From Isoptericola dokdonensis DS-3 (lineage in GTDB: Bacteria; Actinomycetota; Actinomycetes; Actinomycetales; Cellulomonadaceae), in assembly GCF_001636295.1 (NCBI RefSeq), contig NZ_CP014209.1, forward strand, positions 1,984,001 to 2,048,000: a stretch of DNA of 64,000 bases. Direction: 5' to 3'. Below are positions 44,256-57,871 of this stretch, piece by piece. The position numbers and the translations under genes were made by a program. The number at the start of each line of letters is the position of its first letter. The stretch's first letter is position 1. The notes under the pieces were generated by a model. It was not told the DNA's origin and ran no database searches. It was given only the letters and a program-made list of their open reading frames with translations.

Positions 44256-44792
44256 GTGAGCGAGGCGCTGCTGGTGATCGTCGGTGCGCTGATCGGTGTG
44301 CTCGGCACGACTTGGACCACGTGGCTCGGGCACCGCATGCGGCGACGCGACGAGGTGGCCGAACGCGTGCGGGTCGCGCTGCTCCCCGTCTCCGAGGCCC
44401 ACGCGCAGTGGGCGACCGCGGTGTGGTCCTGTCTGCTCATCGAGGACAGCTCCGAGAGGCGCGAGAGGGTCGACGTCCTCGGGCTGGACTTCATGCGTAT
44501 GCTCGGCGCGCTCGCCGATGCGTCGGCCGACCCGGAGATCGGACGTCGGAGCAGCGACGCGGCCGATGCGGTGCAGGGAGTCAGCATGAAGATCGGCATG
44601 CGGGCCACTGACGAGATCGTCGAGGCCGCGCTCGAAAGCGCCAACATTGCGGCCACCCTTGCCCAGCGCGCAGCGCGGCGGCGCGCCTACCCACGGACGC
44701 TGGGCGAACGATGGCGGGGCTGGCGTCTGGAACGCGCCAACAGGGAGCGGAGTGTGCGGGTGCACGTCCCGCGACAGGAGGGGAAGTCGTGA
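44256..44792 (+). CDS. Membrane-anchored cargo protein A (paralogue of the next gene)
   Basis: A 178-residue protein from GTG with GGGGAGG ahead. One N-terminal membrane helix (EALLVIVGALIGVLGTTWTTWLG), then a basic turn HRMRRRDEVAERV and a long helical cytoplasmic domain. The next gene has the same plan and start (VSE-x-L), so the two look like diverged copies. They are read opposite to the late genes and overlap by four bases. Role unknown; a lysogen-expressed exclusion or defence function is possible. Confidence 0.65.
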   Translation: MSEALLVIVGALIGVLGTTWTTWLGHRMRRRDEVAERVRVALLPVSEAHAQWATAVWSCLLIEDSSERRERVDVLGLDFMRMLGALADASADPEIGRRSSDAADAVQGVSMKIGMRATDEIVEAALESANIAATLAQRAARRRAYPRTLGERWRGWRLERANRERSVRVHVPRQEGKS

Positions 44793-45424
44793 GCGAGACG
44801 TTGGTGGGCGTGATCGTTGGTGGCGCGGTCGGTGTCGCGTCTGCACTCATCACCGCGGTGGTAGGTCCCCTGCTGGCCGCTCGCCACGAGCGGCGGAAGG
44901 CGCGCGCGGAGCGCGTTCACGCGGTGCTCGCGGAGCTGCCCGAGACACGCGCCGTGTGGTGGGGCGGGACCTTTGCTGCCGCCAGCGGCCACGACTCGGG
45001 AATCACGAGTGAGCAGGTCGAGAACCTGACCCGACTGCTGTCTCGGCTCGCCACATCAGCGAACGATGCGGCCCTACGGCGCGCGACGACCAAGGCATCA
45101 GGATCCGTGTCGACCGCATGGACCATGGCGTCCGTCGCCGAGGTGGCGCGCCTCCGCGGGATGAAGGCGAGCGACGACGCGCTCGACAACATCGGGATCA
45201 AGTCGTACGAGGCGGCGGCCGACCTCGACGCCGTGACGGCGGCGGCGATGGAGATCGTCGACCCGACACCCTGGTGGCTGCGGCTCTACCGCCTCGCCTT
45301 TCCACCCGAAGAGCCGAAGGTGGACTACGCGGCAACCATGCGAGAACTGCGCAAGGTCGCACGCGCGGCCGGCGCGGTTGGGCTCACGGATAAGGCGAGC
45401 AGCTCGACGACTACCGCCGACTGA
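44789..45424 (+). CDS. Membrane-anchored cargo protein B
   Basis: A 211-residue protein from GTG (overlap GTGA, AGGAGG ahead). N-terminal helix ETLVGVIVGGAVGVASALITAVVGPLLAA, basic turn ARHERRKARAERV, then helices (TSEQVENLTRLLSRLATSAN). Compared with its neighbour it has 33 more residues. End overlaps the convergent SOS-box gene by 14 bases. Function unknown. Confidence 0.65.
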   Translation: MSETLVGVIVGGAVGVASALITAVVGPLLAARHERRKARAERVHAVLAELPETRAVWWGGTFAAASGHDSGITSEQVENLTRLLSRLATSANDAALRRATTKASGSVSTAWTMASVAEVARLRGMKASDDALDNIGIKSYEAAADLDAVTAAAMEIVDPTPWWLRLYRLAFPPEEPKVDYAATMRELRKVARAAGAVGLTDKASSSTTTAD

Positions 45425-45704
45425 CGGCGCTCGCCCAGACCCAGGCGAAGCCTTCGCGGCCGTGGGGGTCGAGGTAGCGGACATGGACCTGGCGGTCGGT
45501 CCAGGCGGTGGCATGGCCGTCAGCCTCGAACTCGCCGGTCTGCCGGGCGGTGAGCCAGACGCGGATGGCAGGCGGGTCGTCGGGCCGGGTGACCCGGGCG
45601 TCACGGCGCTGCGCGGCCGGCGCTTCCTCGGCACAGTCGCGCAGCGGCACCTGCTCGATGCTGTCGGGGGTGCTCCCCCACGGTGTCCGTCGTCGCGTGC
45701 CCAT
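45411..45704 (-). CDS. Small protein under an SOS box
   Basis: A 97-residue basic protein: disordered first half (TRRRTPWGSTPDSIEQVPL) and a compact beta second half (IRVWLTARQTGEFEADGHA, VHVRYLDPHGREGFAWVW). Not recognised. A perfect LexA-type box lies 13 bases before its ATG, so its expression should rise with DNA damage. It could be an inducer or antirepressor linking host SOS to prophage escape, by position only. Confidence 0.6.
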   Translation of the reverse strand: MGTRRRTPWGSTPDSIEQVPLRDCAEEAPAAQRRDARVTRPDDPPAIRVWLTARQTGEFEADGHATAWTDRQVHVRYLDPHGREGFAWVWASAVSRR

Positions 45705-45716
45705 GCTGTCTACCTC

Positions 45717-45732
45717 TCGAACGCTTGTTCGA
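45717..45732 (-). promoter_or_regulatory. SOS (LexA) box
   Basis: TCGAAC-GCTT-GTTCGA matches the actinobacterial/mycobacterial consensus TCGAAC-N4-GTTCGA with no mismatch, 13 bases before the start of the 97-residue gene. Confidence 0.8.
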
Positions 45733-45774
45733 GTCTAGGTCAGGTGGACACCTCGCCGGCCGGGTGGCCGGTGC

Positions 45775-46096
45775 TCATCCGCGCAGCTCCCACGGATCGG
45801 GCTCGGGGGCGGGCGCGAGCTCGTGCATGAGCAGGGCCTGGATCGCGGGTGTGAGTCGCTGGAGCGCGGCCAGCGCGGCGTCGGCGGTCACGCCGTCGAG
45901 GGCGGCCAGCACGGGGATGCCGAGCCGCTGGACCTCGACGGTGCGGGTCGTGGTGTCGACGACGAAGGGCCGGGCGTCTCCGGTTCGGTCGTACAGCGGT
46001 GCGCGGCCGGCGAGCTCGACGACCTCGACGCGCTGGTGGTGGCTTGGGATGACGGTGCCGTGGTGGGGGCCGCCGATGACGATCGGGGTGGTGCAC
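45775..46096 (-). CDS. Small phage protein with a one-base frame disruption at its start
   Basis: Reading leftward, a good coding frame runs from TTPIVIGGPHHGTVIP through VEVVELAGRAPLYDRTGDAR to the stop at 45775, about 105 residues. It has no start codon of its own. A GTG with GGAGA ahead lies at 46096 exactly one base out of frame, separated by a CCCC run; length 322 is one more than 107 codons. Removing one C would give a normal gene. Either a sequencing indel, a real mutation or a phase switch. Function unknown. Confidence 0.6.
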
Positions 46097-46107
46097 GGTG
46101 TCTCCGT

Positions 46108-46224
46108 TCAGGCGTTGTAGGTGGTGGCGTCGCACCGGCAGGAGTGGTGGGCGTCGTCGTGCTCGGCGCGGTGGCACTCGTGTGCTCCCCAGCCGTCGGT
46201 CCAGGTGTGGCCGCAGGTCTTCAT
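46108..46224 (-). CDS. Cys/His-rich micro-protein
   Basis: A 38-residue protein, MKTCGHTWTDGWGAHECHRA, then HHSCRC. Four Cys and six His in this length predict a zinc knuckle. GGAGG lies five bases before the ATG, which overlaps the stop of the helix-turn-helix gene (ATGA). Confidence 0.65.
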   Translation of the reverse strand: MKTCGHTWTDGWGAHECHRAEHDDAHHSCRCDATTYNA

Positions 46225-46418
46225 CGGTTCCTCCGATTGGCGGGTCGGTCGCCCATGGCGACGCGGCGCACGTCGTCGAGGGCGTAGAGCTTGCGGCCGC
46301 GGCGGTCGCGGCCCTGGGCGGTGAGGTGTCCTCGGTTGGCCCAGGAGCGGATCGTTCGGGGCGCTACGCCGACGGCGGTGGCGGCGGCGTTGGTGTCCAC
46401 GGGGATGTCCTGCTGCAT
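46221..46418 (-). CDS. MerR/AlpA-like helix-turn-helix protein
   Basis: A 65-residue DNA-binding protein. AAATAVGVAPRTIRSWANRG is the helix-turn-helix and DRRGRKLYALDDVRRVA the wing, as in AlpA or MerR-like regulators. It heads an operon with the two micro-protein genes and lies just after a 19-bp operator, so it is probably an early regulator under repressor control. Confidence 0.75.
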   Translation of the reverse strand: MQQDIPVDTNAAATAVGVAPRTIRSWANRGHLTAQGRDRRGRKLYALDDVRRVAMGDRPANRRNR

Positions 46419-46439
46419 CGTCTCGCGTTATCCTTTCTT

Positions 46440-46458
46440 CGTCTCGCGTTGGTAGACG
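46440..46458 (-). promoter_or_regulatory. 19-bp operator, CGTCT-N9-AGACG
   Basis: Perfect inverted repeat 22 bases before the helix-turn-helix gene start, over the likely promoter (GATAAC at about -10). One of five copies in the prophage. Confidence 0.65.
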
Positions 46459-46531
46459 CTCAGCCTATCCGTAGCGGCCGGCGGCCCCCGGCGAGGTGTC
46501 ATCGGGGGCCGCTTGGCGGAGGCTATGGCGG

Positions 46532-46601
46532 GGCCGCTAGGACGCTAGAACCGCGGAATCTTGCGGTTTCTGCGCCTAGCGGCCCCGATAGGGCTATCGG
46601 G
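46532..46601. other. Nested hairpins after the FtsK-like gene
   Basis: A 53-base imperfect palindrome (46532-46584; arms starting GGCCGCTAGG) is followed by a perfect CCCGATAG-GG-CTATCGGG (46584-46601). The second lies right after the TAG of the FtsK-like gene and can terminate it. CTAG occurs five times in about 80 bases although it is rare in such genomes, so the site may serve in transfer or replication. Confidence 0.55.
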
Positions 46602-46606
46602 CCGGC

Positions 46607-48712
46607 CTAGCGGTCGGTGGCGTCGACGAGGGTCTGCCGGGCGAGGCCCTTGCCGTTGACCTGCTGGCCGTCGACGGTGCGGTTGACCTGGATCGTGCGC
46701 ACGCCGTGGGGCTTGACGGCGGCGTGGACCTGCGCGGCGCTCCAGCCGTCGTAAAGCGTCGGGCGGGCCGCGGCGAGCCGCTCGGCGATGACGGTGCCGC
46801 GCAGCTTGTCGTCGTCGGTGGCGGGCCAGATGCCGAGGATGTGATCGATGACGGTGCTGTCGTCGATGTCCTCGGGCTCGACGCCGGCGGCGAGGCCGGT
46901 CAGGAGGCCGGCGCGCTCCCGGGCGGCGCGGGCGCGAGCTGCGATCGCCTCGGCGGCCGGGCCGTCGACATAGGCGGTGCGGACGATGACCGGGTCGTCG
47001 CCCTCGCCGACGAGGTAGCCGACGCCGAGGTCCTTGCGGCCGAACATCGTTGCGCGCACGCCGGCCTTGTACATGCTCGTGCCGAGGACCATGTCGTTCT
47101 CGACCTGGCCGAGCACCTTGAGGCAGAACCGCAGGATGGCGTTGGCGCTGATGGCGGTGGGGATCGACTTGGCGTCGGGCCGCTGGGTGGCGAGCCACGT
47201 CATGATGCCGACGGCGGGGCCGCGCTTGACGAGGTCGGTGACGATCTCCTCGATCTCCTTGCCGTGCTCGGGGTGCTCGAACATCACCTGCGTCTCGTCG
47301 AAGGCGAACATGACCGGGTGGAGGCCGAGGCTGCGGTCGCTGGCGATCTCGTCGGTGACCTTGGACTCGGGGCAGATGTCCTTGGGCAGGCCGCGGACGG
47401 TCTTGTACCGGCGGCGCATGTCGGTGCGGGCGGCGCGCAGGTCGGCGACGAGGTACGCCATGTCCTCGGGGTCGTCGCCGGTGCGGTAGGCGTGCGCGAC
47501 GGCGGCGAGCGGCGCGTGGTCGGCCCCGCCCTTGAGGTCGTAGATGTGCAGCTCGACGCGCGGGTCGAGGGCGGCCGCGAGCTCGAGCAGGCGCAGCGAG
47601 AACGTCTTGCCCATGCGCGGCACCGCGCCGACGAGGCCGGCGGCGAACATCAGCGTGGTCTCGACGGTGCGGCCGCGCTGGTCGAGGCCGATCGGGGCCG
47701 GCTTGAAGACGTTCACGCGGCCGGCCTTGGCGAGGTCCCAGGTGGGGGTCTTGGCGTCGGCCATCGACTTGTCGGCGACATAGAGCACGAGGCGGCCCTC
47801 GTGCACCTCGGGGTCAGGCTCGGGCCAGACGCAGCCGAGCGGGCGGCGCAGGCCGGATGCGAGCTTGCTGCGCCGCTCGATGACCTCGGCGGCCGTGGTG
47901 CCGCCGGGGAGGTCGATGTCGGCGCGGAAGCCGGGGCCGTCCCGGACGATGGCGACGTACCGGATGGCGTGCGGGTCGCCCTTGAGCGCGGCCGTGATCG
48001 ACGCGAGGCCGAGGCTGGCGAGCGACTCGGTGATCAGGTAGCCGGTAAGCGGCGGGACCTCGATCTTCTCGTTGGCGTCGCTGGTGACGCGGGTGTTGGC
48101 CTTGCGGCCCAGCGCGCCGAGGACGAGCAGGGCGACGGCGGCGGTGGCGACCTGCGCGGCGGTCGGGGCGGCGACGGCGACCCAGGCGATGGCGGCGGCC
48201 AACGGCCCGGCGATGAACGCGAGGGTGATGGCCCGCTGCTTGATGACGTGGCGACGCTCGGCCCGCACCTTGATGTAGTGGTTCGGGTCGTCGACCTTGC
48301 CCATGACGTGCCAGTGGATGTCCCGGCTCGCGGTGTCCCAGACCCAGGCCCAGGTGGCGGCGACGAGGCGGCCCAGGCCGATGGGGCTGCGGACCGCGAG
48401 GCGGCCCGCGTAGATCGGGGCGCGGAGCAGGTGGTACGCGCTGAAGTGACCCGCGTACCCGGCGGCCCAGGCAAGGGTCGCCCCGAGGGTGGCCCGGTCG
48501 CGCAGCCAGGTCGGGACGATGGGGCGGCGGTCGCCGTCCCGCTCGGGGCGGGCCTTGGTCCGCTCGGCAGGGCGGCTGCCGATGGGCTTGCGACCGTCGA
48601 GCGGGTCGGGCGGGTCGGTGACGGTGCGGTCGGGGTAGGAGTGGATCGTCGGGGCGAGCACGACGTCGGTCACCTCGCCGTACGCGGGGCGGTGGGACGT
48701 GTCGGTGGACAT
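46607..48712 (-). CDS. FtsK/SpoIIIE-type DNA translocase, TraB/TraSA-like
   Basis: A 701-residue membrane ATPase. Two to three membrane helices at about 162-200, then an FtsK domain with Walker A GAVPRMGKT (362-370) and Walker B FDE (471-473), and a basic winged-helix end (about 640-695, DGWSAAQVHAAVKPHG). This plan equals the Tra proteins that move double-stranded DNA between hyphae or cells in actinomycete conjugative elements. In a siphovirus it may move or segregate the phage genome. It is divergent from a DUF2637 gene, the other transfer-type protein. Confidence 0.85.
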   Translation of the reverse strand: MSTDTSHRPAYGEVTDVVLAPTIHSYPDRTVTDPPDPLDGRKPIGSRPAERTKARPERDGDRRPIVPTWLRDRATLGATLAWAAGYAGHFSAYHLLRAPIYAGRLAVRSPIGLGRLVAATWAWVWDTASRDIHWHVMGKVDDPNHYIKVRAERRHVIKQRAITLAFIAGPLAAAIAWVAVAAPTAAQVATAAVALLVLGALGRKANTRVTSDANEKIEVPPLTGYLITESLASLGLASITAALKGDPHAIRYVAIVRDGPGFRADIDLPGGTTAAEVIERRSKLASGLRRPLGCVWPEPDPEVHEGRLVLYVADKSMADAKTPTWDLAKAGRVNVFKPAPIGLDQRGRTVETTLMFAAGLVGAVPRMGKTFSLRLLELAAALDPRVELHIYDLKGGADHAPLAAVAHAYRTGDDPEDMAYLVADLRAARTDMRRRYKTVRGLPKDICPESKVTDEIASDRSLGLHPVMFAFDETQVMFEHPEHGKEIEEIVTDLVKRGPAVGIMTWLATQRPDAKSIPTAISANAILRFCLKVLGQVENDMVLGTSMYKAGVRATMFGRKDLGVGYLVGEGDDPVIVRTAYVDGPAAEAIAARARAARERAGLLTGLAAGVEPEDIDDSTVIDHILGIWPATDDDKLRGTVIAERLAAARPTLYDGWSAAQVHAAVKPHGVRTIQVNRTVDGQQVNGKGLARQTLVDATDR

Positions 48713-48731
48713 GGGGCACCTTCCTCGGTTG

Positions 48732-48827
48732 GTCTCTTGCTGGCGTCTACGAGTGTCCCATGGTTTGTCTCGTAGCGCTAGACAGTCACGGGGCGGCCCA
48801 GTACGTTGGGGCGTGCCAGCAAGAAAC
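48732..48827. promoter_or_regulatory. Divergent promoters with two leader elements and one operator
   Basis: Leftward: -35 TAGCGC, 17 bases, -10 GACACT (48752-48757), seven bases, GCCAGCAAGAGAC (48732-48744). Rightward: -35 TAGACA (48779), 17 bases, -10 TACGTT (48802), seven bases, GCCAGCAAGAAAC (48815-48827). The operator TGTCT-N9-AGACA (48766-48784) overlaps both -35 boxes, so one repressor could silence both. Confidence 0.75.
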
Positions 48828-48844
48828 CGACGAAGGGTCGCCCC

Positions 48845-49918
48845 ATGCCTGCAATCGCCCCGTCCGCCCCGGCCCACGAGGCCGCTCCGATCGCCCCGGC
48901 CCAAGCCGCCCCGGGCGTCGAGGACCGTCCCGCTCCGACCGGCGAGGCCCGGCCCGCGTGGGACAAGGTCCGCATGCCGGCCCGCCCCGCCGCGGCCGGC
49001 CCGCGTCGCAGCTCGCGCGCACTGGTGATGGTCGGCGCAGTGTCCGTCGCGCTCGTCTCGACCGCCAGCGCGTATCTCGCCATGGTCGGGTTCGGCGTCG
49101 ACCTGCTCGCCATGTCGCCCCCGGTCGCCTACGCGACGGCGGGGGTGTTCGAGCTCTCGCTCATGACGGTCGCGCTGCTCGCCCGCGAAGCGGCGAAGGG
49201 CAACCGGCCGGCCGGCACGCTGCTGGCGCTGACCTGGGTGCTCTCGGGCGCGTCGGGGCTGTTCGCCGCGTGGCACGAGCTCGTCGTTGGTCACCCGGCC
49301 GGCGCGGCCGTGTTCCGGCTGACCGTGCCGCTGCTCGCGGCGCTGATGTGGCACCTGGCGCTGATCGGCGACCAGCACCTCGCCTCGGGCCGGACGTGGT
49401 CCGAGCTGCGCGCCGGGCGGCGCATGCACGCGCTGTTCCAGGCCATCGAGGCCGAGCGCCGCGCGCGGGTGCTCGACGACGGCTCGCGCCGTGCTCGCCG
49501 GCACGCGCTGCGGGCCGAGGCCCGTCGTCTGCGTGCGCGCTCGCTCGCGCTGCGGTCGGTCCCGCCGGAGCAGATGCGCGAGGTCACCGCTGCGTGGACC
49601 GATGCTTTCGCCGCGCTCGAGGCCGGGGCGGTCGCAGTGCTGGCCCGGTTCGACGATGGGGCGGCCCGGATGACCGCGGAGCCGCATGCCGCGAAGGCGA
49701 CCCGCCGGTCGACGTCGACGCCGGCTCGGGAGGCCCGGCCGACCGAGGCGCACCCCGCCCCGGCGAGGCCTGCCCCGACGCCCCGCCCCGCCGGCGGGGA
49801 CCGCGAGGCGCTGCGCGCCGAGGTCGAGCGGCTCGCCGGCGAAGGCCTGTCCCACCGCGAGATCGCCGACCAGCTCGGCGGCGTCACGAAGTCGACGGTG
49901 GGCCGCTGGCTCGCCTGA
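48845..49918 (+). CDS. DUF2637 (SpdB-like) membrane protein with C-terminal helix-turn-helix
   Basis: A 357-residue protein. A proline/alanine-rich head (1-58) is followed by four membrane helices at about 60-82, 93-115, 123-142 and 154-175, with the DUF2637 signature VFELSLMTVALLAREAA. A charged coiled region comes next, and the last 33 residues are a homeodomain-like helix-turn-helix (SHREIADQLGGVTKSTVGRW). DUF2637 proteins are typical spread/transfer proteins of actinomycete plasmids and integrative conjugative elements, usually beside a Tra translocase, as here. Cytoplasmic HTH may tether DNA to the membrane. Confidence 0.85.
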   Translation: MPAIAPSAPAHEAAPIAPAQAAPGVEDRPAPTGEARPAWDKVRMPARPAAAGPRRSSRALVMVGAVSVALVSTASAYLAMVGFGVDLLAMSPPVAYATAGVFELSLMTVALLAREAAKGNRPAGTLLALTWVLSGASGLFAAWHELVVGHPAGAAVFRLTVPLLAALMWHLALIGDQHLASGRTWSELRAGRRMHALFQAIEAERRARVLDDGSRRARRHALRAEARRLRARSLALRSVPPEQMREVTAAWTDAFAALEAGAVAVLARFDDGAARMTAEPHAAKATRRSTSTPAREARPTEAHPAPARPAPTPRPAGGDREALRAEVERLAGEGLSHREIADQLGGVTKSTVGRWLA

Positions 49919-49927
49919 CACAACAAC

Positions 49928-49961
49928 GAAGCGCCCCGGCCCGCAAGGGTCGGGGCGCTTC
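49928..49961. terminator. Bidirectional intrinsic terminator
   Basis: GAAGCGCCCCG pairs with CGGGGCGCTTC around a 12-base loop, between the converging DUF2637 and MT-A70 genes. Confidence 0.8.
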
Positions 49962-49971
49962 GATTACTCGA

Positions 49972-50877
49972 TCAGGAGCGGACGGCCGTGCGTCCACGCC
50001 CGCGCAGTTCGGTACCAACCGATTCAAGGAGTGCGCGAACTCGAGTGATCGAGTAGTCCGTCTCGGCGCAGAGTTGGCGGATCGACGCTCCCGACTCGTA
50101 CCGCTCACGGAGGACTACACCGATCCGCTGCGCCGTTACCGAGGTCAAGCGTTCGTGAGGCTCGAGGTGCGGCACGGGAGCGACGTCGCCTCCGCCGTAT
50201 CCACGGTGCACCTGACCGCGAGGGGTCGTTTCGTCACCTGCCTCATCTCCCCATGCAGTCCAACCCTCCTGCGGGTAACGGGCGAAGAGCTCAAGGAAGG
50301 GCCCAGGGCTGCATCGCTCAATGAGGTCGTACTGCTCATCAGGCTTGCGACTGTGCTCGCGCTTGCGCGTCTCGATCATGTTGACCTGAGACCGCGCCGG
50401 CGCGAGGGTGCGCATAGACCCCCGGACGCCGAAGAGCAGAAGCTCGGTGACGTTTCGGAAGTAGAAACCAACACCCCGCCCGTCGGGTCCACCGTCCTTG
50501 CGCCGCTTAGCCCAGACGATGTGCGAGACGTATCGGAAGCCCCATGCCTCCATCACTCGCAGACCATCCGGGAGGAGCGCGTTGGGCACCCACAGGTACA
50601 GGTGCGCGTCGTCCGCCGCACTCGTAGCAACCGGAATCTCAGCGATCTCGTCAACGGTCAGCGTCGAGTAGCGATCGAGCCGACGGTGCTCCGGAGCTAC
50701 CTTGCCGGTGCGGTTGGTGAAGCGCCACGGCGGATCAGCGAGGATCGTCTTGAAACCACCGTCAGTCGCCGGCAGCGGCGGAGGGGCTTGAACCTCACGA
50801 AGAGGCGGCGCGGTAGCCGTCTGGATCGGGATCGCCAGTGATGGCTGAGGAACCTCGGTAGTTGTCTGGGCGGACAT
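49972..50877 (-). CDS. MT-A70 family N6-adenine DNA methyltransferase with C-terminal helix-turn-helix
   Basis: A 301-residue protein. The MT-A70 core (about 40-230) has the catalytic DPPW at 48-51, the YLWVPNALLPDGLRVMEAWG strand-helix unit and GFYFRNVTELLLFGVRG. The last 65 residues (SVTAQRIGVVLRERYESGAS, then IRQLCAETDYSITRVRALLE) are a helix-turn-helix domain. It follows a BglII/BstYI-like nuclease gene in the same direction and is probably its protective partner. A promoter and palindrome lie just before the ATG, which is likely the first transcribed base. Confidence 0.88.
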   Translation of the reverse strand: MSAQTTTEVPQPSLAIPIQTATAPPLREVQAPPPLPATDGGFKTILADPPWRFTNRTGKVAPEHRRLDRYSTLTVDEIAEIPVATSAADDAHLYLWVPNALLPDGLRVMEAWGFRYVSHIVWAKRRKDGGPDGRGVGFYFRNVTELLLFGVRGSMRTLAPARSQVNMIETRKREHSRKPDEQYDLIERCSPGPFLELFARYPQEGWTAWGDEAGDETTPRGQVHRGYGGGDVAPVPHLEPHERLTSVTAQRIGVVLRERYESGASIRQLCAETDYSITRVRALLESVGTELRGRGRTAVRS

Positions 50878-50921
50878 GGAGCCACCGTAGCCGCAAAGAT
50901 CTACTTTGCCAAAGTGGATCT
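50877..50921 (-). promoter_or_regulatory. Methyltransferase promoter with a 25-bp palindrome holding AGATCT and GGATCT
   Basis: -35 TTGGCA (50907-50912), 17 bases, -10 TACGGT (50884-50889), six bases to the ATG. The near-perfect palindrome 50897-50921 has arms AGATC-x-ACTTT and AAAGT-x-GATCT; it covers the -35 and the upstream half of the spacer. It contains the hexamers AGATCT and GGATCT, sites of BglII/BstYI-type enzymes. Confidence 0.75.
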
Positions 50922-51615
50922 ATGGCGTGTCTCCGTGCCACGTAGCCTCGCTGATGAACACGGCCAGGACCGGGCACCCGCCGCCGTCGCCTCGCTGCAG
51001 GCGCGGCACCAACTTGTTGAAGTTGGTCGTTGTCGACGTGTTGAGTCGCTTGCGGGCAGCCTCTTCGCTCTGTCCTGCGTCACGAGCGAGCCGGTAGGCA
51101 AGGTCTCGCAGTTCGTCGTGCATGCGCGTGATGATGACGGCCACGTCGATCAGCGCGAGGTCATACCAAGACCGGTACGCGCCCAGGTCACGGTCCAGGT
51201 TTCCGTCCTTCGCGTTCCACTCGACGTCGAGAGCCACGCGCTCGATCACGTTGTCGACCTTGTAGCCCTCGGCGGCGATGGTCGTCGAACTCACGAGCTC
51301 CGTGCCCTTTTCTCCCGCAGCCCCGTACGGGAACCTGTAGAGCTTGAGTTGGGTCTCAACGTCGGCACGTGACTCACGCCAACCGTGGGCTCTGAACGAC
51401 GCGTTGAGGCGTGCCGCCAGGTTTGACTCGTTGCCGCCCGCAGCGACCAGGTCTGCCGTCAGGAGGGTGAAGTCGCGTAGGGCGCGCACCAGGTCCTCAA
51501 AGGCTCTCGGATTGGTGCCCGCAAGCACCGCGGCCGCGTTGCGGGTCTCGCGGAACTTGTACTTCGCAAGCACGTCCGCAGGAAGCGCTTCCTCATAGGA
51601 GTGAGTGAGGTCCAC
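50920..51615 (-). CDS. BglII/BstYI-family type II restriction endonuclease
   Basis: A 231-residue nuclease. The family block is VDNVIERVALDVEWNAKDGN followed by LDRDLGAYRSWYDL, with candidate metal ligands Asp121, Asp130 and Glu132 and the invariant WN-x-KD. N-terminal helices (NLAARLNASFRAHGWRESRA) match the dimer region. Relatives cut A/GATCT or R/GATCY. GTG start, with TAAGGT close upstream suggesting a leaderless message. Specificity is inferred from family only. It precedes the MT-A70 gene by 42 bases. Confidence 0.82.
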   Translation of the reverse strand: MDLTHSYEEALPADVLAKYKFRETRNAAAVLAGTNPRAFEDLVRALRDFTLLTADLVAAGGNESNLAARLNASFRAHGWRESRADVETQLKLYRFPYGAAGEKGTELVSSTTIAAEGYKVDNVIERVALDVEWNAKDGNLDRDLGAYRSWYDLALIDVAVIITRMHDELRDLAYRLARDAGQSEEAARKRLNTSTTTNFNKLVPRLQRGDGGGCPVLAVFISEATWHGDTP

Positions 51616-51620
51616 GCGCG

Positions 51621-51634
51621 AACCTTACAAGGTT
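51621..51634 (-). promoter_or_regulatory. Inverted repeat over the restriction gene promoter
   Basis: AACCTT-AC-AAGGTT, perfect, lies six bases before the GTG and covers the TAAGGT -10. It could bind a controller, for instance the methyltransferase's helix-turn-helix domain. Confidence 0.55.
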
Positions 51635-51664
51635 GGACGCGGGCCATACTCGCTGGCCTCGGCC

Positions 51665-51928
51665 CTAAGCGCGCTCGGCCTTGGCGCGGAAGCCAGTTCG
51701 CGGCAGTGGATGCCACCAGCCGCGGTGCCAGCAGACGCCGTCGAGCCGCTCGGCGTCGGGGTCGCCGCCGCAGACGGCCCAGCCAGCCATCTCGGCTCTC
51801 GTGGGCCGCTGTGCGGCCGGCGGGTGGCCGGTGGGGCGCACGGGCTCGGGGCGGACGGTTACGCCGTCCCGGACGCGCTGGGCGCGCTCCGTGAGGGCCT
51901 CGAATGTTGGGACGGGCGTGCGGGGCAC
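51665..51928 (-). CDS. Small phage protein, unknown
   Basis: An 87-residue protein from GTG with GGAGA ahead. Two Cys and three Trp/His clusters occur late (CGGDPDAERLDGVCWHRGWWHP), possibly a metal or nucleic-acid site. The helix PTFEALTERAQRVRDG opens it. First gene after the restriction unit in the early operon. Not recognised. Confidence 0.6.
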   Translation of the reverse strand: MPRTPVPTFEALTERAQRVRDGVTVRPEPVRPTGHPPAAQRPTRAEMAGWAVCGGDPDAERLDGVCWHRGWWHPLPRTGFRAKAERA

Positions 51929-51939
51929 GGTGTCTCCTT

Positions 51940-52023
51940 TCAGTCGCTGCAGCGGCACTCGGCGGTGTGCGGGTTGATCCACCCACCGCAGGAGCCGCAC
52001 CGCTCGGGTTGCTGCGGGCTCAT
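51940..52023 (-). CDS. 27-residue zinc-ribbon micro-protein
   Basis: CGSCGGWINPHTAECRC: four cysteines in the spacing C-x2-C...C-x-C fit one zinc knuckle. The ATG overlaps the stop of the preceding membrane protein (ATGA), the main argument that it is real. Confidence 0.5.
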   Translation of the reverse strand: MSPQQPERCGSCGGWINPHTAECRCSD

Positions 52024-52208
52024 CCGGCGATCCAACGCACGCCGGCGACGCCGATGCCGACGGCGGTCGTGAGGATGGCCAGGAGGATCGCGACGGCGAT
52101 CACGCGCCCGAGGACGTTGACGGCGCTGGTGCGCCTCGGCTCGAGCCGGGCCGGGCAGGCGTGCCCGCAGGTCAGGCACATGTCTGTCGAGCGGTCGGTG
52201 GTGTTCAT
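52020..52208 (-). CDS. Small protein with CxxC motif and membrane helix
   Basis: A 62-residue protein: CLTCGHACPAR near the start, a basic linker, then the membrane helix VLGRVIAVAILLAILTTAVG. Four-base overlaps with both neighbours. Function unknown; orientation would put the zinc-binding head in the cytoplasm. Confidence 0.6.
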   Translation of the reverse strand: MNTTDRSTDMCLTCGHACPARLEPRRTSAVNVLGRVIAVAILLAILTTAVGIGVAGVRWIAG

Positions 52209-52366
52209 CGTGTCTCCGGTCGGGGGAGCCGGCCGTGGCCGGCGGGGCGGTGCGGGCAGAACCGCTCGAGATAGGCCGCGACCCATCTCGTGCGCTCGTG
52301 CTCGACGAGGGGCAGGCCGGCTGCGCGCTGCAGGGCGCGCCGCTCGCAGGCGCAGCGGCGTGCCAT
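52205..52366 (-). CDS. Small Cys/His/Arg-rich phage protein
   Basis: A 53-residue protein starting [17 protein letters not shown] with a late FCPHRPAGHG; three Cys and several His may hold zinc. The ATG overlaps the ssb stop, so it is translated after ssb. Not recognised. Confidence 0.55.
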   Translation of the reverse strand: MARRCACERRALQRAAGLPLVEHERTRWVAAYLERFCPHRPAGHGRLPRPETR

Positions 52367-52836
52367 CAGAAGGGCGGTTCTCCGGCGAGGGCGGCCGCCG
52401 GCGTCGCCCACGGGTCGTGTGCGGGGGCCGGCGTGCCGGCGTCGCGGCCGCCCGCGGTGGTCGCGCCGGAGCGGCCGGCGCGCTGCACCTGCGCGGTGGC
52501 CCAGCGCAGTGAGGGGCCGATCTCGTCGACCTCGAGCTCGACGACGGTGCGCTGCTCCCCCTCGCGCGTCTCGTAGGACCTCTGGGTGAGGCGGCCCTGG
52601 GCGATGACGCGCTGGCCCTTGCGGAGCGACTCGGCCACGTTCTCGGCCGCGTCGCGCCAGACAGAGCAGCGCATGAACAGCGCTTGACCGTCGCGCCACT
52701 CATTGGTCTGTCGGTCAAAGGTGCGCGGGGTGCTTGCAATGGCGAAGTTCGCGACGGCCGCGCCGGCGGGTGTGAACCGCAGCTCCGGGTCCGCGACGAG
52801 GTTGCCGATCACCGTGATCATGGTTTCGCCTGGCAT
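52366..52836 (-). CDS. ssb: Single-stranded DNA-binding protein
   Basis: A 156-residue SSB. The OB fold covers residues about 5-105 with [38 protein letters not shown] and [16 protein letters not shown] Pro/Ala linker ends in GEPPF, a reduced form of the acidic tip that recruits partners. Alternative start at MITVIGN (residue 6). It serves phage replication and RecT-type recombination encoded downstream in the same operon. Confidence 0.92.
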
Positions 52837-52885
52837 CGTTTGTTTCCAATCGTGAGGTTTCTCTAGACGCCTTGGGTCGAAGTAT

Positions 52886-52913
52886 GGGGACGCCGGTCAT
52901 GGCCGGCGTCCCC
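52886..52913 (-). terminator. Hairpin before ssb
   Basis: GGGGACGCCGG and CCGGCGTCCCC form an 11-bp stem with a 6-base loop, 14 bases past the stop of the 78-residue gene. It separates that gene from ssb, whose own promoter region holds TTTCTCTAGACGC (52858-52870), a 13-mer also found at 18654-18666. Confidence 0.7.
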
Positions 52914-52927
52914 CTGTTGGCGGCACG

Positions 52928-53164
52928 CTAGTTGGAGTGCTCGCGCCCCTCGAACTCGGCCACCATCGTTCTCAACGCGTCGATGAGCTGCTGGGCATGG
53001 GAGAGCGATACGGGCTGCTCAGGGGGTTCGAGATCAAAGGTCACGTCCCCGTCGGTGATGTAGGTCTGGAGCGTTATCTCATCGCCCTCGCACTCGACGC
53101 TGATCGCCGGGCCGAGCTGGAAGCCGTCGTTGACTTCCTGGGCGGCGTGAGTGGCACTGCTCAT
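52928..53164 (-). CDS. Small acidic phage protein, unknown
   Basis: A 78-residue protein with a beta middle (ISVECEGDEITLQTYITDGD) and a C-terminal helix (SLSHAQQLIDALRTMVAEFE). It is a single-gene unit: a 19-bp operator lies upstream and a terminator downstream, so it is probably regulated by the repressor. Fold suggests a small ligand- or partner-binding protein. Confidence 0.65.
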   Translation of the reverse strand: MSSATHAAQEVNDGFQLGPAISVECEGDEITLQTYITDGDVTFDLEPPEQPVSLSHAQQLIDALRTMVAEFEGREHSN

Positions 53165-53194
53165 CGTTGTGTTGCCCCCAGGGTGATCGGTGGG

Positions 53195-53213
53195 TGTCTT
53201 GTGTTTGTAGACG
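53195..53213 (-). promoter_or_regulatory. 19-bp operator, TGTCT-N9-AGACG
   Basis: One mismatch between arms; placed 31 bases before the 78-residue gene, over its likely promoter (TTGAAC near 53215). Confidence 0.6.
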
Positions 53214-53215
53214 GT

Positions 53216-53827
53216 TCAACGTAACAGCCGGGTCGAACATCCATTCGACGTGCGCCCGCACGCAGGGTTGGAACAGCGTTGCGCGAGGTTCTGTGACTCA
53301 ACCCACACAGACCGTTGCCCGCAGCGCTCACACGGGCGTTCACGCAGGTAGGGGGCCACAACATGGCCCGCCGCGGCCCGTGAGCGGTGGGTGAAATTTC
53401 GAAGCCGGATCGTTATCGCTTTCGCCTGCTCCAGGTCAACTTCCGTGAGGGTCTGGGCATGGTCTGCAAGGAATTTCAGGCGGCGGAGGACGGCCGCTTC
53501 ACGCGGCGCGCCCCAGGCCGGTGTGGCCGGCGACTGCTGACGGAGCGCGGAGACGGCGAGCCAGTACTGCTCGTGGATTCCCTCATCCACCTGGGTGGTC
53601 GTGTCGAGGACGTGCAGGGCTATCGGGGCGGGCACGTCCTCGCCCCGCGAGGCGCGGCCGCCGTCCTGGGGGCCGCGCACCTCGGGATGCAGGAGGCCGA
53701 CGAGCTCGACGCGGGCGGCGGCGAGCTCGTCGGCGTGCAGGGCGAGGCTGCTCGCGATCTCCTGCTGCTCGAGCGCGTGCTGGTGGAGGGCGTCGTTGCG
53801 CGCTGCGCGGGCGGCTCGTCGGCTCAT
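53216..53827 (-). CDS. Phage protein with C-terminal zinc ribbon
   Basis: A 203-residue protein. A helical N-terminal half (ALHQHALEQQEIASSLALHA) and middle (AVLRRLKFLADHAQTLTEVD) precede a C-terminal ribbon, CERCGQRSVWVESQNLAQRC with CSNPACG, giving two Cys pairs. Position after the replication initiator and a ribbon end suggest DNA or RNA contact. Not recognised. Confidence 0.65.
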   Translation of the reverse strand: MSRRAARAARNDALHQHALEQQEIASSLALHADELAAARVELVGLLHPEVRGPQDGGRASRGEDVPAPIALHVLDTTTQVDEGIHEQYWLAVSALRQQSPATPAWGAPREAAVLRRLKFLADHAQTLTEVDLEQAKAITIRLRNFTHRSRAAAGHVVAPYLRERPCERCGQRSVWVESQNLAQRCSNPACGRTSNGCSTRLLR

Positions 53828-53830
53828 GCC

Positions 53831-53980
53831 TCACTCCCCATCGCGTGTCGCTCGGTGCTCGTTTACGTCGGCCGGGGTGATGCGAACGGCCCCGCGGCCG
53901 GCGGCCCTGCCGCGGATACGGACGTACCCGCGGCAGGTGCCGCACCAGACGGTGGCGCTGAGGCCGTCGTGCTCGCTCAC
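53831..53980 (-). CDS. 49-residue phage protein with CxxC
   Basis: MSEHDGLSATVWCGTCRGYV, then RIRGRAAGRGAVRITPADVN. The GTG start overlaps the stop of the initiator gene (GTGA) and the stop is four bases before the next ATG, which supports coding. The WCGTCRGYVRI turn resembles half a zinc ribbon. Confidence 0.6.
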   Translation of the reverse strand: MSEHDGLSATVWCGTCRGYVRIRGRAAGRGAVRITPADVNEHRATRDGE

Positions 53981-54747
53981 GCGCGCGCTCCGGCGAGGGC
54001 GGCGTCGACGGCGGCGCGGCCGCGCGCGTTGCGCTCGACGAGGGCGGGGTCGTGCTTGCAGGGCAGGCCGTTGCGGAGGCGGCCGTCGTCGTCACAGAGG
54101 CCGCAGGCGTCGATGTCGATGCGGGCCAGGCGGGTGCGCTCGGCACGCTCGGCGCGGAGCCGCTCAGCGTCTGCAGTGCGCTGGCGCTGGTCGCGCTCGG
54201 CCTCGGCGGCCTCGACGACCCGCCGGGCGCGGGCGCAGGCCCCGCAGGGCGGCGGGACGTCGGTGTGCTGGTGCTCGGCGCACCGCTCGGGGTGCTCGAG
54301 CCGCTGGGCGCGGGCCGTGGCGGTTTCCTGCGCCGCGAGGTCGCGGCGGTCGGTGGCCGCGGGCTTGGGGGCGGGTGCGGTGGGCTCGGAGGCGGCCGGC
54401 TTGGCCCCGCGGTGGCGGTGCTGGTCGGCGTCGGTGACGTGGTTCTTCGAGCGGTCACAGTCGGGCGGGCACGTGAGCGTGAAGGCGTAGAGGTTCGGGC
54501 GCAGGTGGTCCGGCGTGCGGGCGGTGCCGCCCTGCTGGCGGCCGCGGCTGACCTCGCCGAGCACCTGCAGCTCGTCGATCGCGCGCTGGACGCTGCGGGT
54601 GCTGACGTTGGCGTACTTGGCGAGGGTGGCGATCGAGGGCCAGGCCCCGCCGTCGCCGTCGTGGTTCGCGATTCCGAGCAGGACGACCTTGGCCGTGCCC
54701 TGCGCGCGACTGTGGTGCAGGGCGATGGTCATGGCTTCGACGCTCAT
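53977..54747 (-). CDS. Helix-turn-helix protein, likely replication initiator
   Basis: A 256-residue protein. A winged helix fills residues about 1-90 (VVLLGIANHDGDGGAWPSIA, LAKYANVSTRSVQRAIDEL), as in phage initiators of the O/DnaD class. A charged coiled coil with two Cys clusters follows (CAEHQHTDVPPPCGAC, CGLCDDDGRLRNGLPCKH), which may bind zinc. It lies next to a repeat-rich region that looks like an origin, and starts a transcript with the leader element. Start MSVEAMTIAL chosen after that leader. Confidence 0.8.
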   Translation of the reverse strand: MSVEAMTIALHHSRAQGTAKVVLLGIANHDGDGGAWPSIATLAKYANVSTRSVQRAIDELQVLGEVSRGRQQGGTARTPDHLRPNLYAFTLTCPPDCDRSKNHVTDADQHRHRGAKPAASEPTAPAPKPAATDRRDLAAQETATARAQRLEHPERCAEHQHTDVPPPCGACARARRVVEAAEAERDQRQRTADAERLRAERAERTRLARIDIDACGLCDDDGRLRNGLPCKHDPALVERNARGRAAVDAALAGARA

Positions 54748-54771
54748 GGTGGTTCTCCTACGTGGGGGGAA

Positions 54772-54854
54772 GTTCCTTGCTGGCGGTCGCGACAGTACGC
54801 CGACTGTTGACAACTGGCAAGCCGCACCTGCCATTCGTCTACGTTTCCGAGACG
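54772..54854 (-). promoter_or_regulatory. Initiator-gene promoter with leader and upstream operator
   Basis: -35 TTGCCA (54815-54820), 17 bases, -10 TACTGT (54792-54797), seven bases, GCCAGCAAGGAAC (54772-54784). The 19-bp operator CGTCT-N9-AGACG (54836-54854) is 15 bases above the -35. Confidence 0.75.
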
Positions 54855-54959
54855 GTCCGGGCGCGAAGCGTCCCGGCTTGCTCGTGATCCGTCGTCTCTG
54901 CCGGGGGCTGCGACGGCTCGCCCGCGCCGTAGTGAGTTACCCACACAGCGCCACCCAGG

Positions 54960-55110
54960 AAGGACGGTTCTCAAGGACGGTTCTTAAGGATGGTTCGGGT
55001 GACACTGGCGTCAGGGGGTGGGGTGACACCAGCGTCAGGGGGTGGGGTGACACCAGCGTCAGGGGGTGACACTGGCGTCAGGGGGTAGGGGGTGACGTAG
55101 ATGTCACCCC
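54960..55110. repeat. Iteron-like direct repeats, candidate phage origin
   Basis: Three 13-bp units AAGGA(C/T)GGTTC(T/G)(C/T/G) at 54960-54998, then four units of about 24 bp, GGGTGACAC(C/T)(A/G)GCGTCAGGGGGTG, at 54997-55088, then the inverted repeat GGGGTGAC-N6-GTCACCCC (55089-55110). It is within the 330-base gap between the initiator and rusA genes (54748-55077), overlapping the rusA end. Such arrays bind initiators at phage and plasmid origins. Confidence 0.7.
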
Positions 55111-55560
55111 TGTGGAAAACGTCGCGGCGGCCGCTGACCGGGAGACACCAAGAGCGCCCGGCGGCATCGGCTCGAGGATGAACGTCAGGCAGGCCGGCCC
55201 GTTGGGATAGACGCGCTTGATCCACGGCCCCTCGACGACTCCGTCGTGGTCACCCGGCAGCGCGCCGGCGTCGGTGGCGACGCCGTCGAGCAGGGCCTTG
55301 ACGGTGGGGTAGAGGTTGCCCGAGTCGCGGCGGTGGTTGTTCGGCAGCCGGACCTCGAGCCAGACCCGCACAGGCGTCGTGAACGCGCCGTGCTGCGCCT
55401 TGAGCCGCTCGCCGATGCCGGCCCCGAGCTCGCGCCACGGGCGGGTGCGCTTGGACGTGTAGCGGGTGTGCCCGCGGACGTCGTTGATGTTGATCAGGCG
55501 GCCGGGCCACAGGGCCTCGGGGATCGTGGCGGACCAGGGGGCCGGCTTGCGCTCACGCAT
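55078..55560 (-). CDS. RusA-like Holliday junction resolvase
   Basis: A 160-residue protein. The RusA core is NHRRDSGNLYPTVKALLDGV with metal-binding Asp residues and GDHDGVVEGPWIKR with further acids. It resolves recombination joints, matching the RecT and exonuclease genes before it. The last 30 residues are a low-complexity tail encoded within the repeat array, so the terminal residues vary with repeat number. Confidence 0.88.
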   Translation of the reverse strand: MRERKPAPWSATIPEALWPGRLININDVRGHTRYTSKRTRPWRELGAGIGERLKAQHGAFTTPVRVWLEVRLPNNHRRDSGNLYPTVKALLDGVATDAGALPGDHDGVVEGPWIKRVYPNGPACLTFILEPMPPGALGVSRSAAAATFSTGVTSTSPPTP

Positions 55561-55879
55561 CGGTGGTCGCCCGCCACAGGGCCGCGCGGCGGCCGGTCGT
55601 GCTGGTGCCGTGCGCGCCGGGCACTCGCTCGACGAGGCCGTCGCGCACGAGCTCGTGGACGCGGGTGCGCACGCTGGAGTCGGTGGCGGCCGGCCAGCCG
55701 ATCCTGGTGCCGGCGCGCTGGCGGAACCGGCCGACGATGCGCTCGTGGGTGAGCGGCTCGGGGGCCTCGCGCATGATCGCCAGGACGCAGTCGCGCACGA
55801 TCGTTCGGCGTCGACGCACGTCCGCTGCGGCGTCGTGGGACGTGTCGGGGTCGGTGCGGCGGGCGAGGGCGGTGCTCAC
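55553..55879 (-). CDS. Winged-helix phage protein
   Basis: A 108-residue protein from GTG overlapping the recT stop (GTGA). RRTIVRDCVLAIMREAPEPL, then SVRTRVHELVRDGLVERVPG form a winged helix-turn-helix; the TDPDTSHDAAAD opening is common in phage proteins next to RusA. Likely DNA-binding; role unknown. Confidence 0.72.
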   Translation of the reverse strand: MSTALARRTDPDTSHDAAADVRRRRTIVRDCVLAIMREAPEPLTHERIVGRFRQRAGTRIGWPAATDSSVRTRVHELVRDGLVERVPGAHGTSTTGRRAALWRATTDA

Positions 55880-56643
55880 TTGGTGTCCTCCGTGTCGGTC
55901 TCGTCGAGGGCGGGGATGTCGATGTCGCCGGCGTCGTACCGCTGGACCTGCTCGTCGGCCTGGACGGCGAAGCTGAGGGCGGTGCTCTGCGGCAGGAGCG
56001 GGACGAGGGCGCGCAGGGCTGTCTTGCGGACCATGGCGTCGTAGTCGGTGGCCCACGGGCTGTTGCTGCCGTCCTTGAAGCCGCCGCGGTCGCGCCGCTC
56101 GTGGACCTCGGCGAGCGAGAGGTACCGGTGCTGCACGTCCCCGCCGGCGAGGCGGGCGGCCGCCAGCGCGCCGACCGGCTTGCCGCGCTCGACGGCCGGC
56201 TCCCAGTCGAAGAAGAAGCCGCGCTCGGACGAGGCCCCCTCGCGGAAGGTGTCTCCTTCGTGGACGACCACGGCGTTCACCTGGCCGACGCCGGCCCGTC
56301 GGGCGAGGGTGATCAGGCCGCGGTAGCCGACGATCGGGACGACGGCCCAGCCGTCGCGCTTGAGCCGGCGCGGGGTGAGGTAGAACTGCCCGAGCGGGCC
56401 GCCGACCTCGAGGCCGACGCGGGCCGCGGTCATGAGCGCGCCGAGCAGGGACTCGCCGCTGCAGTTGCCGAGCTGCGGGTTCATCTTCAGCTCGGTGAGC
56501 GCCAGGCGCAGGAAGTTGTCGATGCTGGCGTGCTCGGGCAGGGCCTTGTGCAGCTCGCCGCGCATCGACTCGACGAGGTCAAAGGCGGTGCGGCGCTGGG
56601 CCGGCTGCTGGTCGGCGATGGCGGTGGCGAGGTCCTGTGTCAT
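55876..56643 (-). CDS. recT: RecT single-strand annealing protein
   Basis: A 255-residue RecT/Redbeta-type recombinase. Conserved blocks: FLRLALTELKMNPQLGNCSG, GQFYLTPRRLKRDGW, PIVGYRGLITLARRAG, and PWATDYDAMVRKTALRALVP. It anneals complementary strands exposed by the exonuclease encoded just upstream (overlap ATGA). With SSB and RusA this makes a full phage recombination set. Confidence 0.92.
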   Translation of the reverse strand: MTQDLATAIADQQPAQRRTAFDLVESMRGELHKALPEHASIDNFLRLALTELKMNPQLGNCSGESLLGALMTAARVGLEVGGPLGQFYLTPRRLKRDGWAVVPIVGYRGLITLARRAGVGQVNAVVVHEGDTFREGASSERGFFFDWEPAVERGKPVGALAAARLAGGDVQHRYLSLAEVHERRDRGGFKDGSNSPWATDYDAMVRKTALRALVPLLPQSTALSFAVQADEQVQRYDAGDIDIPALDETDTEDTK

Positions 56644-57647
56644 GCGTCGTGCTCCTTCGGGAGGAAGCGCCGTGCCGTGGACTGCTTGGTCACGGCCTTG
56701 GCGATGGCGGGGTAGTTCTTGCGGAGGCGGGCCGAGTCGATGCGGCTCGAGGTCTGGGGCTTCCAGGTGGCCAGCAGGCGGCCGTCGCGGTCGCGCAGCG
56801 CGGTGCGGTCGCCGAGGGCGGTCTGCAGCTCGAAGGCGGCGGCGTCGGCGTCGGCCTCGGCCTCGGCCTTGCGGCGGCGGGCGTCGACGAGGCGGCCGTG
56901 GGCGTCGAGGACGTCGTCGCTGGCGGTCAGGTCGTCGAGGTTCTGGTCGCCGGGCCAGAGCTTGTGCAGGGTCTTGCGGTCGCCGAAGGTCGGGGCCGGC
57001 TGCTCGCCGCCGACGACGTGGTCGTTCCACCAGCGGCCGCCGTAGTTGATGAGCTGCTCGATGACGCGCTCGTTGCGGTCGATCGGTATCGGGGCCGGCA
57101 TGCGCTGGCCCCCGACGAGGACGGCGACCCAGATCCGGTCGAGGCCGGTCACGGCGAGCTGCTGCTGCACCTGGACCTGGATGCTCAGCGGTGGCAGGTT
57201 GTCCTCCCACCGCTGGATGTAGTTCGCCAGCGAGGTCGTCTTGACCTCGAGGGCCGCGAGGACCCGCGGGTTGGCCGTGCCGCGCTCGACGAGCAGCCGG
57301 TCGAGGGTGGCGAGCATCCACGGGTGCTCGGGGTGGCGCAGCAGGCCGGGCGTCGGGGCGATCTTGCCGAGCTCGCGGTGGCGCGTGCCGACCTTGCGGG
57401 CGACGACGGCCTCGAGCACGCTCCCCCACTCGGCGGCCTCGCTGACGTGGACGTCCTCGACGGGCGCGGTGCTGGTCTTGTCGAGCCAGACCTGCAGCGG
57501 GGTCTTCCAGTCGCTCAGGTTGAGCACGGCGGCCGTCTCGGAGGCCCCGAGGCCGGTGCGGCGCGCCTGGAGCCACGGGATGCGGGATCGGGAGTAGTCG
57601 CGGGCGTCGAGGATGAGCTCGCCGCCGAGGCCGTCGGGGAGCGTCAT
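56640..57647 (-). CDS. YqaJ-like viral recombinase (exonuclease)
   Basis: A 335-residue lambda-exo-fold nuclease. IPWLQARRTGLGASETAAVL is the family opening, AAEWGSVLEAVVA carries the first acid, WMLATLDRLL the Asp, and ALEVKTTS the E-x-K pair. It resects DNA ends for RecT. The last third has a coiled coil (RRRKAEAEADADAAAFELQ). Confidence 0.9.
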   Translation of the reverse strand: MTLPDGLGGELILDARDYSRSRIPWLQARRTGLGASETAAVLNLSDWKTPLQVWLDKTSTAPVEDVHVSEAAEWGSVLEAVVARKVGTRHRELGKIAPTPGLLRHPEHPWMLATLDRLLVERGTANPRVLAALEVKTTSLANYIQRWEDNLPPLSIQVQVQQQLAVTGLDRIWVAVLVGGQRMPAPIPIDRNERVIEQLINYGGRWWNDHVVGGEQPAPTFGDRKTLHKLWPGDQNLDDLTASDDVLDAHGRLVDARRRKAEAEADADAAAFELQTALGDRTALRDRDGRLLATWKPQTSSRIDSARLRKNYPAIAKAVTKQSTARRFLPKEHDA

Positions 57648-57871
57648 GCGCCGGCCCCCGCGCCCATCTGCCGCTGCGCGGCGATGAACGCTCGCACGTC
57701 GTCGGGCGCGAAGTGGTACGTGCGCCCGACGCGGATCGAGGCGATGTCGCCCGCGCGCCGCAGCTCGGAGACAGTTGTCGGCGCGCAGCGCAGGATGCGC
57801 CCGACCTCCGCCGCGGTCAGCAGTTGCTCGATGCCGAGCCAGCCGTTCTTGCGGTCGATGGACGTGGTCAC
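57644..57871 (-). CDS. Excisionase-family helix-turn-helix protein
   Basis: A 75-residue winged-helix protein. LLTAAEVGRILRCAPTTVSE is the helix-turn-helix and SIRVGRTYHFAPDDVRAFI the wing, the excisionase/AlpA (SinI-like) pattern. It overlaps both neighbours by four bases in the early operon, so it would be made early in induction, as needed for an Xis. Confidence 0.8.
   Translation of the reverse strand: MTTSIDRKNGWLGIEQLLTAAEVGRILRCAPTTVSELRRAGDIASIRVGRTYHFAPDDVRAFIAAQRQMGAGAGA

Follow-up and report, generated by a model that had tools for sequence, protein, structure and literature searches.

The restriction-modification locus

The window, a stretch of 64,000 nucleotides from the genome of Isoptericola dokdonensis DS-3, contains a Type II restriction-modification (R-M) system that is borne by a prophage. 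The following features were assigned:

28632..60180 (approximate), no strand: prophage context, with PHROGs matches for tape measure, major tail, capsid, protease, terminase, RecE, RusA and integrase
58972-60180, plus strand: integrase (PHROGs)
50920..51615, minus strand: BglII/BstYI-family restriction endonuclease, 231 aa, GTG start
49972..50877, minus strand: MT-A70 family DNA adenine methyltransferase with a C-terminal helix-turn-helix (HTH), 301 aa
49990..50157, minus strand: C-terminal HTH_58 domain of the methylase, residues 241-296

A profile search identified PF09195 (Endonuc-BglII) in the nuclease with 101.4 bits against a cut-off of 26 (E 5.8e-29), in line with the preliminary description, which had called the protein BglII/BstYI-like. 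Structure comparison of the product of 50920-51615 returned the BglII/BstYI fold as well. A sequence search of the PDB with the nuclease matched no restriction enzyme, whereas the fold comparison matched one. We describe the protein as a nuclease with a BglII/BstYI fold, for which cleavage at AGATCT or RGATCY is putative, by analogy with its relative R.Nph3I, which cuts RGATCY.

The methylase matched the MT-A70 profile PF05063 (E 4.9e-28, 98.6 bits, cut-off 23.9) and, over residues 34-292, the PADLOC model MTase_II PDLC03221 (E 4.5e-128). METTL3 and MTA1 were its top Foldseek matches, and the DPPW motif of MT-A70 methylases is invariant across a 32-row alignment. The structural model of the full protein is of middling quality, with a mean pLDDT of 71 and 52 residues below 50. 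Its C-terminal tail matched HTH_58 (PF19575; E 3.6e-9, 36.8 bits, cut-off 23.8) and was modelled as three helices (246-261, 266-273 and 277-286) with pLDDT values of 77-95 for the block and 89-95 from residue 251. The two profile matches bear out the proposal that an extra C-terminal HTH is appended to an MT-A70 enzyme, and strand, coordinates and genes of the pair are as first described. Nuclease and methylase are separated by a gap of 42 nt. A separate small controller gene of the C-protein type was not recognised among the seven proteins scanned.

Two RGATCY sites precede the methylase gene

The gap and its borders contain the elements listed here, all on the strand of the methylase:

50916..50921, minus strand: operator site 1, AGATCC (minus strand)
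50897..50902, minus strand: operator site 2, AGATCT, inside the proposed -35/-10 spacer and 19 nt upstream of the methylase ATG
50897..50921, minus strand: proposed operator, two RGATCY sites whose starts lie 19 bp apart and which together make an imperfect palindrome of 25 bp
50884..50912, minus strand: proposed leaderless methylase promoter, TTGGCA at 50907-50912, 17 bp, TACGGT at 50884-50889, ATG 6 nt further on

Read along the methylase strand, the order is AGATCC, 13 bp, AGATCT, 19 nt and ATG, and the TAG stop codon of the nuclease overlaps site 1. The dyad at 50897-50921 has 12-nt arms with one mismatch and one centre base. A 25-bp palindrome holding GATC-type hexamers is thus present in the window as had been proposed, but the palindrome itself is mostly not kept in relatives, since the inner ACTTTG/CAAAGT dyad that creates it is missing from most of them. 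Relatives keep two AGATCT/RGATCY words and a set of spacing classes instead. Judged from the window by itself, such a pair is no more than a moderate surprise: one was found against 0.07 expected, and 7 of 100 shuffles contain one. The case for the site pair comes from its conservation among HTH-fused loci, which is described below.

The methylase promoter is a candidate. TTGGCA, 17 bp, TACGGT, 6 nt and ATG can be read as the earlier account had it, yet the match is weak (5/6 and 3/6 positions of the sigma-70 hexamers, counted by hand), and a consensus promoter scan of 50600-51800 listed no promoter.

The site pair co-occurs with the fused HTH

To place the locus among its relatives, a first sample of 134 loci was assembled from the window's own locus, 8 viral loci, 5 phage or plasmid records, 80 genome loci out of 572, and another 40 viral loci. 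A tblastn match to the MT-A70 methylase of the window lay within the fetched stretch in all but 5 of the 134 (L014, L076, L081, L111 and L129). An MT-A70 enzyme as partner of a BglII-like nuclease, which had been suspected to be unusual, is the rule among the loci sampled. After setting aside these 5, 9 duplicates (all among the 40 viral loci) and 2 loci with a late-starting match (L042 and L075), 118 usable loci remained, with the HTH tail fused in 36, absent in 72, present as a separate reading frame in 7 and truncated in 3. Site pairs were defined as two RGATCY sites 10-25 bp apart, and the 300 bp preceding codon 42 of the methylase were searched for them. All 36 fused loci contained an RGATCY pair in comparison to 1 of the 79 others, and exact AGATCT pairs were found in 30/36 versus 0/79. 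The single exception, L080, has its pair at -296 from codon 42, in what reads as nuclease coding sequence.

A later sample was fetched via the methylase instead of the nuclease, after the pattern had been seen, and one of its searches kept 80 of 121 loci. Among the 103 loci obtained, 36 repeated the upstream sequence of an earlier one (the fused L233 that of L016), in 4 the upstream sequence was short, and 1 locus was truncated. The RGATCY pair occurred in 6/6 new fused loci and in 1/56 others. L236, from a genome of the window's order, keeps the pair with a methylase of 232 aa in which no HTH was detected, so the coupling of tail and pair is not absolute.

Pooling both samples, an RGATCY pair precedes the methylase in 42/42 HTH-fused loci versus 2/135 others, and an exact AGATCT pair in 34/42 versus 0/135. 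In dinucleotide shuffles the rate of RGATCY pairs was 0.006 per locus (0.6%). AGATCT is the only one of the 64 palindromic hexamers that is paired in more than 2 of the 42 fused promoters. This co-occurrence strongly supports the idea, put forward in the preliminary description, that the fused HTH may act at the two sites and so replace a controller protein. The simplest reading would be that the fused HTH_58 domain is a repressor and the two RGATCY sites are its operator.

Methylation could also act on the promoter directly, with m6A altering the binding of RNA polymerase, no repressor involved and the HTH serving another job, e.g., target search. The putative recognition sites do lie in the core promoter region, and control of this kind is documented for CfrBI, LlaDII and AhdI (PMC12707154). 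However, a tail is not needed for such control, so that tail-less systems should have the sites too, and 133/135 of them do not. We consider this explanation unlikely.

The number of independent origins behind the coupling is small. In a quick methylase tree of 178 rows the fused label changes 5 times, with 1 change forced by starred branches, and an independent-pairs test on the same tree had no power. Single-linkage clustering of the 42 fused catalytic domains yielded 2 clusters at 85% identity and 24 at 90%. Given so few label changes and clusters, 42/42 reflects conservation within one family more than repeated origin and, as far as these sequences tell, the association rests on few independent events.

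Geometry of the pair

Spacing was compared in 43 loci, i.e., the 42 fused loci and the truncated L020. It is 12 bp in 24, 19 bp in 14 and 20 bp in 2 loci, with 18, 22 and 23 bp found once each. The start codon follows site 2 by 17-25 nt in 41/43 loci (median 21), a tightness that is somewhat overstated because the rule for choosing starts favours about 21 nt. A TANNNT word lies 3-12 nt before the start in 27/42 loci, and 26 of 30 such matches end 6-8 nt before it; an SD-like word was seen in 11 of the loci. The placement of TANNNT suggests leaderless transcripts. If the transcripts are leaderless, site 2 would fall in the -35/-10 spacer, with site 1 on the -35 element or farther upstream, and a protein bound there should exclude RNA polymerase.

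The recognition helix of the tail varies with the spacing class. Among the 36 of 43 loci in which it could be read, the residue following Tyr-x-Ile is Q in 19/23 loci of the 12-bp class and T, A or G in 13/13 others, a link that can be explained by descent. With that caveat, a helix residue that tracks spacing argues further against direct promoter methylation and is in keeping with a repressor function of the tail.

The pair lies upstream of the methylase whether the two genes are co-directional, convergent or divergent. In L020, approximately 2.7 kb separates nuclease from methylase, and the pair stays at the methylase. It is also found at the methylase in L239 (12 kb), L240 (10.8 kb) and L154 (a 6 kb viral contig), stretches in which no BglII-like nuclease was found. 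Judged by its position across these loci, the site pair belongs to the methylase.

Shared ancestry offers another account, in which the sites are merely promoter sequence inherited by common descent and no operator exists. The fused loci are indeed one family with few independent origins. Against this, the sequence that separates and flanks the sites differs among relatives while the 6-mers and their distance to the start stay, spacing takes a few discrete values, the pair is kept across changed gene order, and separate arrays of 3-4 copies stand before RAMA genes (see below). We regard simple inheritance as very improbable.

Several neighbouring genes were recorded in these loci. In L020 other reading frames were seen by eye at 3700-6400, within the ~2.7 kb between nuclease and methylase. 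At 5375-9510 of L239, whose genome belongs to the same genus as the window's, the HTH-tailed MT-A70 gene and the pair lie beside an AAA gene (McrB-like by position) and a McrBC-family gene, either another restriction partner or chance neighbours. The 10.8 kb of L240 include a McrBC-family piece.

Recognition sequence

One such pair has been characterised, in Nitratiruptor phage NrS-3. According to PMC10734518, its PF09195 nuclease R.Nph3I cleaves RGATCY, m6A blocks this cleavage, and the neighbouring M.Nph3I methylates RGATCY with the product RG(6mA)TCY. M.Nph3I is 56.6% identical to the methylase of the window over residues 39-288 (joined tblastn matches, running past the annotated gene end). 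Both systems thus have a phage-borne PF09195 nuclease and an adjacent methylase, and the two methylases are homologous. The NrS-3 locus (L010) differs in that it has no HTH_58-like tail by profile and no RGATCY pair before the methylase, and its downstream HTH gene NrS3_06 is, by eye, of another type. Since this characterised relative cuts and methylates RGATCY, the enzymes of the window probably recognise RGATCY as well. The initial guess of AGATCT or RGATCY agrees with published work, and both sites of the pair conform to RGATCY.

The tail could instead be a target-recognition extension that confers AGATCT specificity, tail-less loci having other targets and hence no AGATCT in their promoters. 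Such an extension would likewise couple tail and AGATCT. However, the NrS-3 methylase, tail-less by profile, already methylates RGATCY, and tail-less promoters show no 6-mer at all that is paired in more than 4/135. Therefore, we rate this possibility as quite improbable, and the tail as a repressor of its own gene remains the preferred reading.

Site avoidance was considered as evidence for specificity and dropped, as AGATCT was not clearly avoided in the window, the loci or the genome. Outside the operator, AGATCT occurs 3 times in the window versus 6.9 expected (rank 6 of 39 palindromes), 25 times versus 45.2 in 41 fused loci (rank 4/63) and 92 times versus 133.2 in 72 tail-less loci (rank 8/64). 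The host genome contains 472 copies of AGATCT in comparison to 176 of ACATGT, counts that do not show depletion.

Viral contigs were also scanned for the bare patterns. This gave 3 loci with an 8-bp triple array and, for the 12-bp pair, 80 listed of at least 120 stretches; none of those 83 viral loci matches the MT-A70, HTH-tail, nuclease or RAMA profiles. Hence the motif alone is unspecific, and only its place before the methylase is specific. Pairs of the form AGATCY..RGATCT occur at 12 places in the host genome, 11 besides that of the window.

A sister arrangement with a RAMA protein

Three tail-less loci contain 3-4 tandem RGATCY sites with an 8-bp period, 10/11 of them AGATCT:

L030, 4624-4645: tandem RGATCY array
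L034, 4561-4590: tandem RGATCY array
L070, 4350-4379: tandem RGATCY array

Each array stands shortly before a small gene, which is itself followed by the MT-A70 methylase gene and encodes a RAMA domain protein (PF18755, 52-63 bits, cut-off 35.2). On the evidence of gene order, they are a second layout of recognition sites, themselves putative, in a methylase-operon promoter. The layout was seen only in L030, L034 and L070 among the loci sampled, and RAMA searches of 395 and 396 genomes gave, besides these three, one weak match, L378, whose 3.3 kb contain neither an MT-A70 nor a nuclease match. RAMA has been proposed as an m6A reader, and the evidence is disputed (PMC11037411; PMC9963953).

In six loci of Actinomycetospora type (L017, L018, L023, L026, L027 and L029) a separate HTH_58-like frame lies just downstream of a tail-less MT-A70 gene, and these six have no site pair. 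One of the six frames was confirmed as HTH_58; the seventh locus classed as separate is L125. The separate frame might be an unfused or split form, the source of the fused tail, or a chance neighbour.

Comparison with known regulatory systems

Methylases with a fused HTH that repress their own gene have been described for M.EcoRII, M.SsoII and M.Ecl18kI (PMC12707154; PMC3874152), and M.EcoRII is reported to repress only when its sites are methylated (PMC12707154). The HTH of such regulatory methylases is N-terminal (PMC3874152) and SsoII is a cytosine-5 enzyme (PMC3978073). The locus of the window resembles them in the fusion of an HTH to the methylase and, as we infer, in self-repression at a promoter operator. 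In contrast, its HTH is C-terminal and carried by an MT-A70 enzyme, and its proposed operator consists of two copies of the probable recognition site.

In CfrBI, LlaDII and AhdI the methylase promoter is reported to be controlled by methylation of a site within it (PMC12707154). The RGATCY pair in the methylase promoter region of the window would be comparable, given the likely recognition sequence; the available passages name no fused HTH for those three systems, whereas the pair described here is coupled to one.

Acinetobacter baumannii A118 has a BglII/BstYI-type nuclease, m6A at RGATCY and a separate HTH gene, and loss of this regulator raised the methylase transcript ~50-fold with the nuclease unchanged (PMC10287943). 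It shares a BglII/BstYI-family nuclease with the window and, on the proposed reading, m6A at RGATCY and an HTH regulator. Unlike in the window, the HTH gene is separate, and the methylase is annotated as DNA adenine methylase. A similarly laid-out Acinetobacter locus, L014, gave no tblastn match to the MT-A70 enzyme of the window. RptR, in turn, is described as repressing the promoter of a Type I R-M island via the repeated 6-bp palindrome TAGCTA (PMC12255303), and would parallel the proposed repression of the window's methylase promoter at a repeated 6-bp word. It differs in being a separate small protein, and the abstract does not present TAGCTA as the recognition site of the system.

Taken singly, every element is already known: the nuclease, the methylase, the pairing of the two, regulatory methylases with a fused HTH, and methylation of promoter sites. 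Their combination, i.e., an MT-A70 enzyme with a C-terminal HTH and a paired-site operator tied to this tail, together with the RAMA variant, was not found in the titles, abstract openings and passages of open-licence literature.

Proposed mechanism

Taken as a whole, we think it probable that the methylase-fused HTH represses its own promoter at two copies of the recognition site, with methylation probably tuning the repression. The adenine of RGATCY is the most likely target of the MT-A70 enzyme, as deduced from the characterised relative, and the C-terminal HTH of this enzyme would bind two RGATCY copies, mostly AGATCT, across the -35 element and the spacer of the methylase's own leaderless promoter. 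Once enough methylase is present, RNA polymerase would be kept off this promoter. Upon entry into a new cell, the sites would be unmethylated and the promoter open, so that methylase would be made first; with the sites methylated, the promoter would be repressed.

The operator is probably also the substrate of the enzyme, which invites a methylation-sensing step, and the state of methylation would then tune repression. That the methylase gene reads the methylation of its own promoter, as suggested at the outset, is plausible, given that a characterised relative methylates RGATCY and that the paired sites match this sequence. More tentative, and in our estimate somewhat short of an even chance, is a methylation thermostat in which the fused HTH, or the RAMA protein in the sister branch, would read m6A at the tandem sites in the methylase promoter and so match methylase synthesis to the degree of genome protection.

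It has long been studied how a mobile R-M system produces its protective enzyme first and later keeps it from building up too far. In this locus, 25 bp may hold the answer, with the probable recognition site, present twice, as operator and the tail of the methylase as controller. This compact layout recurs in actinobacterial and proteobacterial loci (by record names) and in viral contigs. If the thermostat were true, unrelated DNA-binding domains would have been recruited on more than one occasion to make an R-M system safe. With the RAMA variant, the disputed question of whether RAMA domains sense N6-methyladenine (PMC9963953; PMC11037411) could be put to a simple system.

Two other genes of the prophage were noted. 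A second methylase at 41473-43110 on the minus strand joins a ParB-like domain to a DNA methyltransferase portion (PHROG 498 and 723). Beside the R-M genes, 46607-49921 on the minus strand reads by eye as a DNA translocase of the FtsK/TraB type (VPRMGKTFSLR), which is odd for a tailed prophage.
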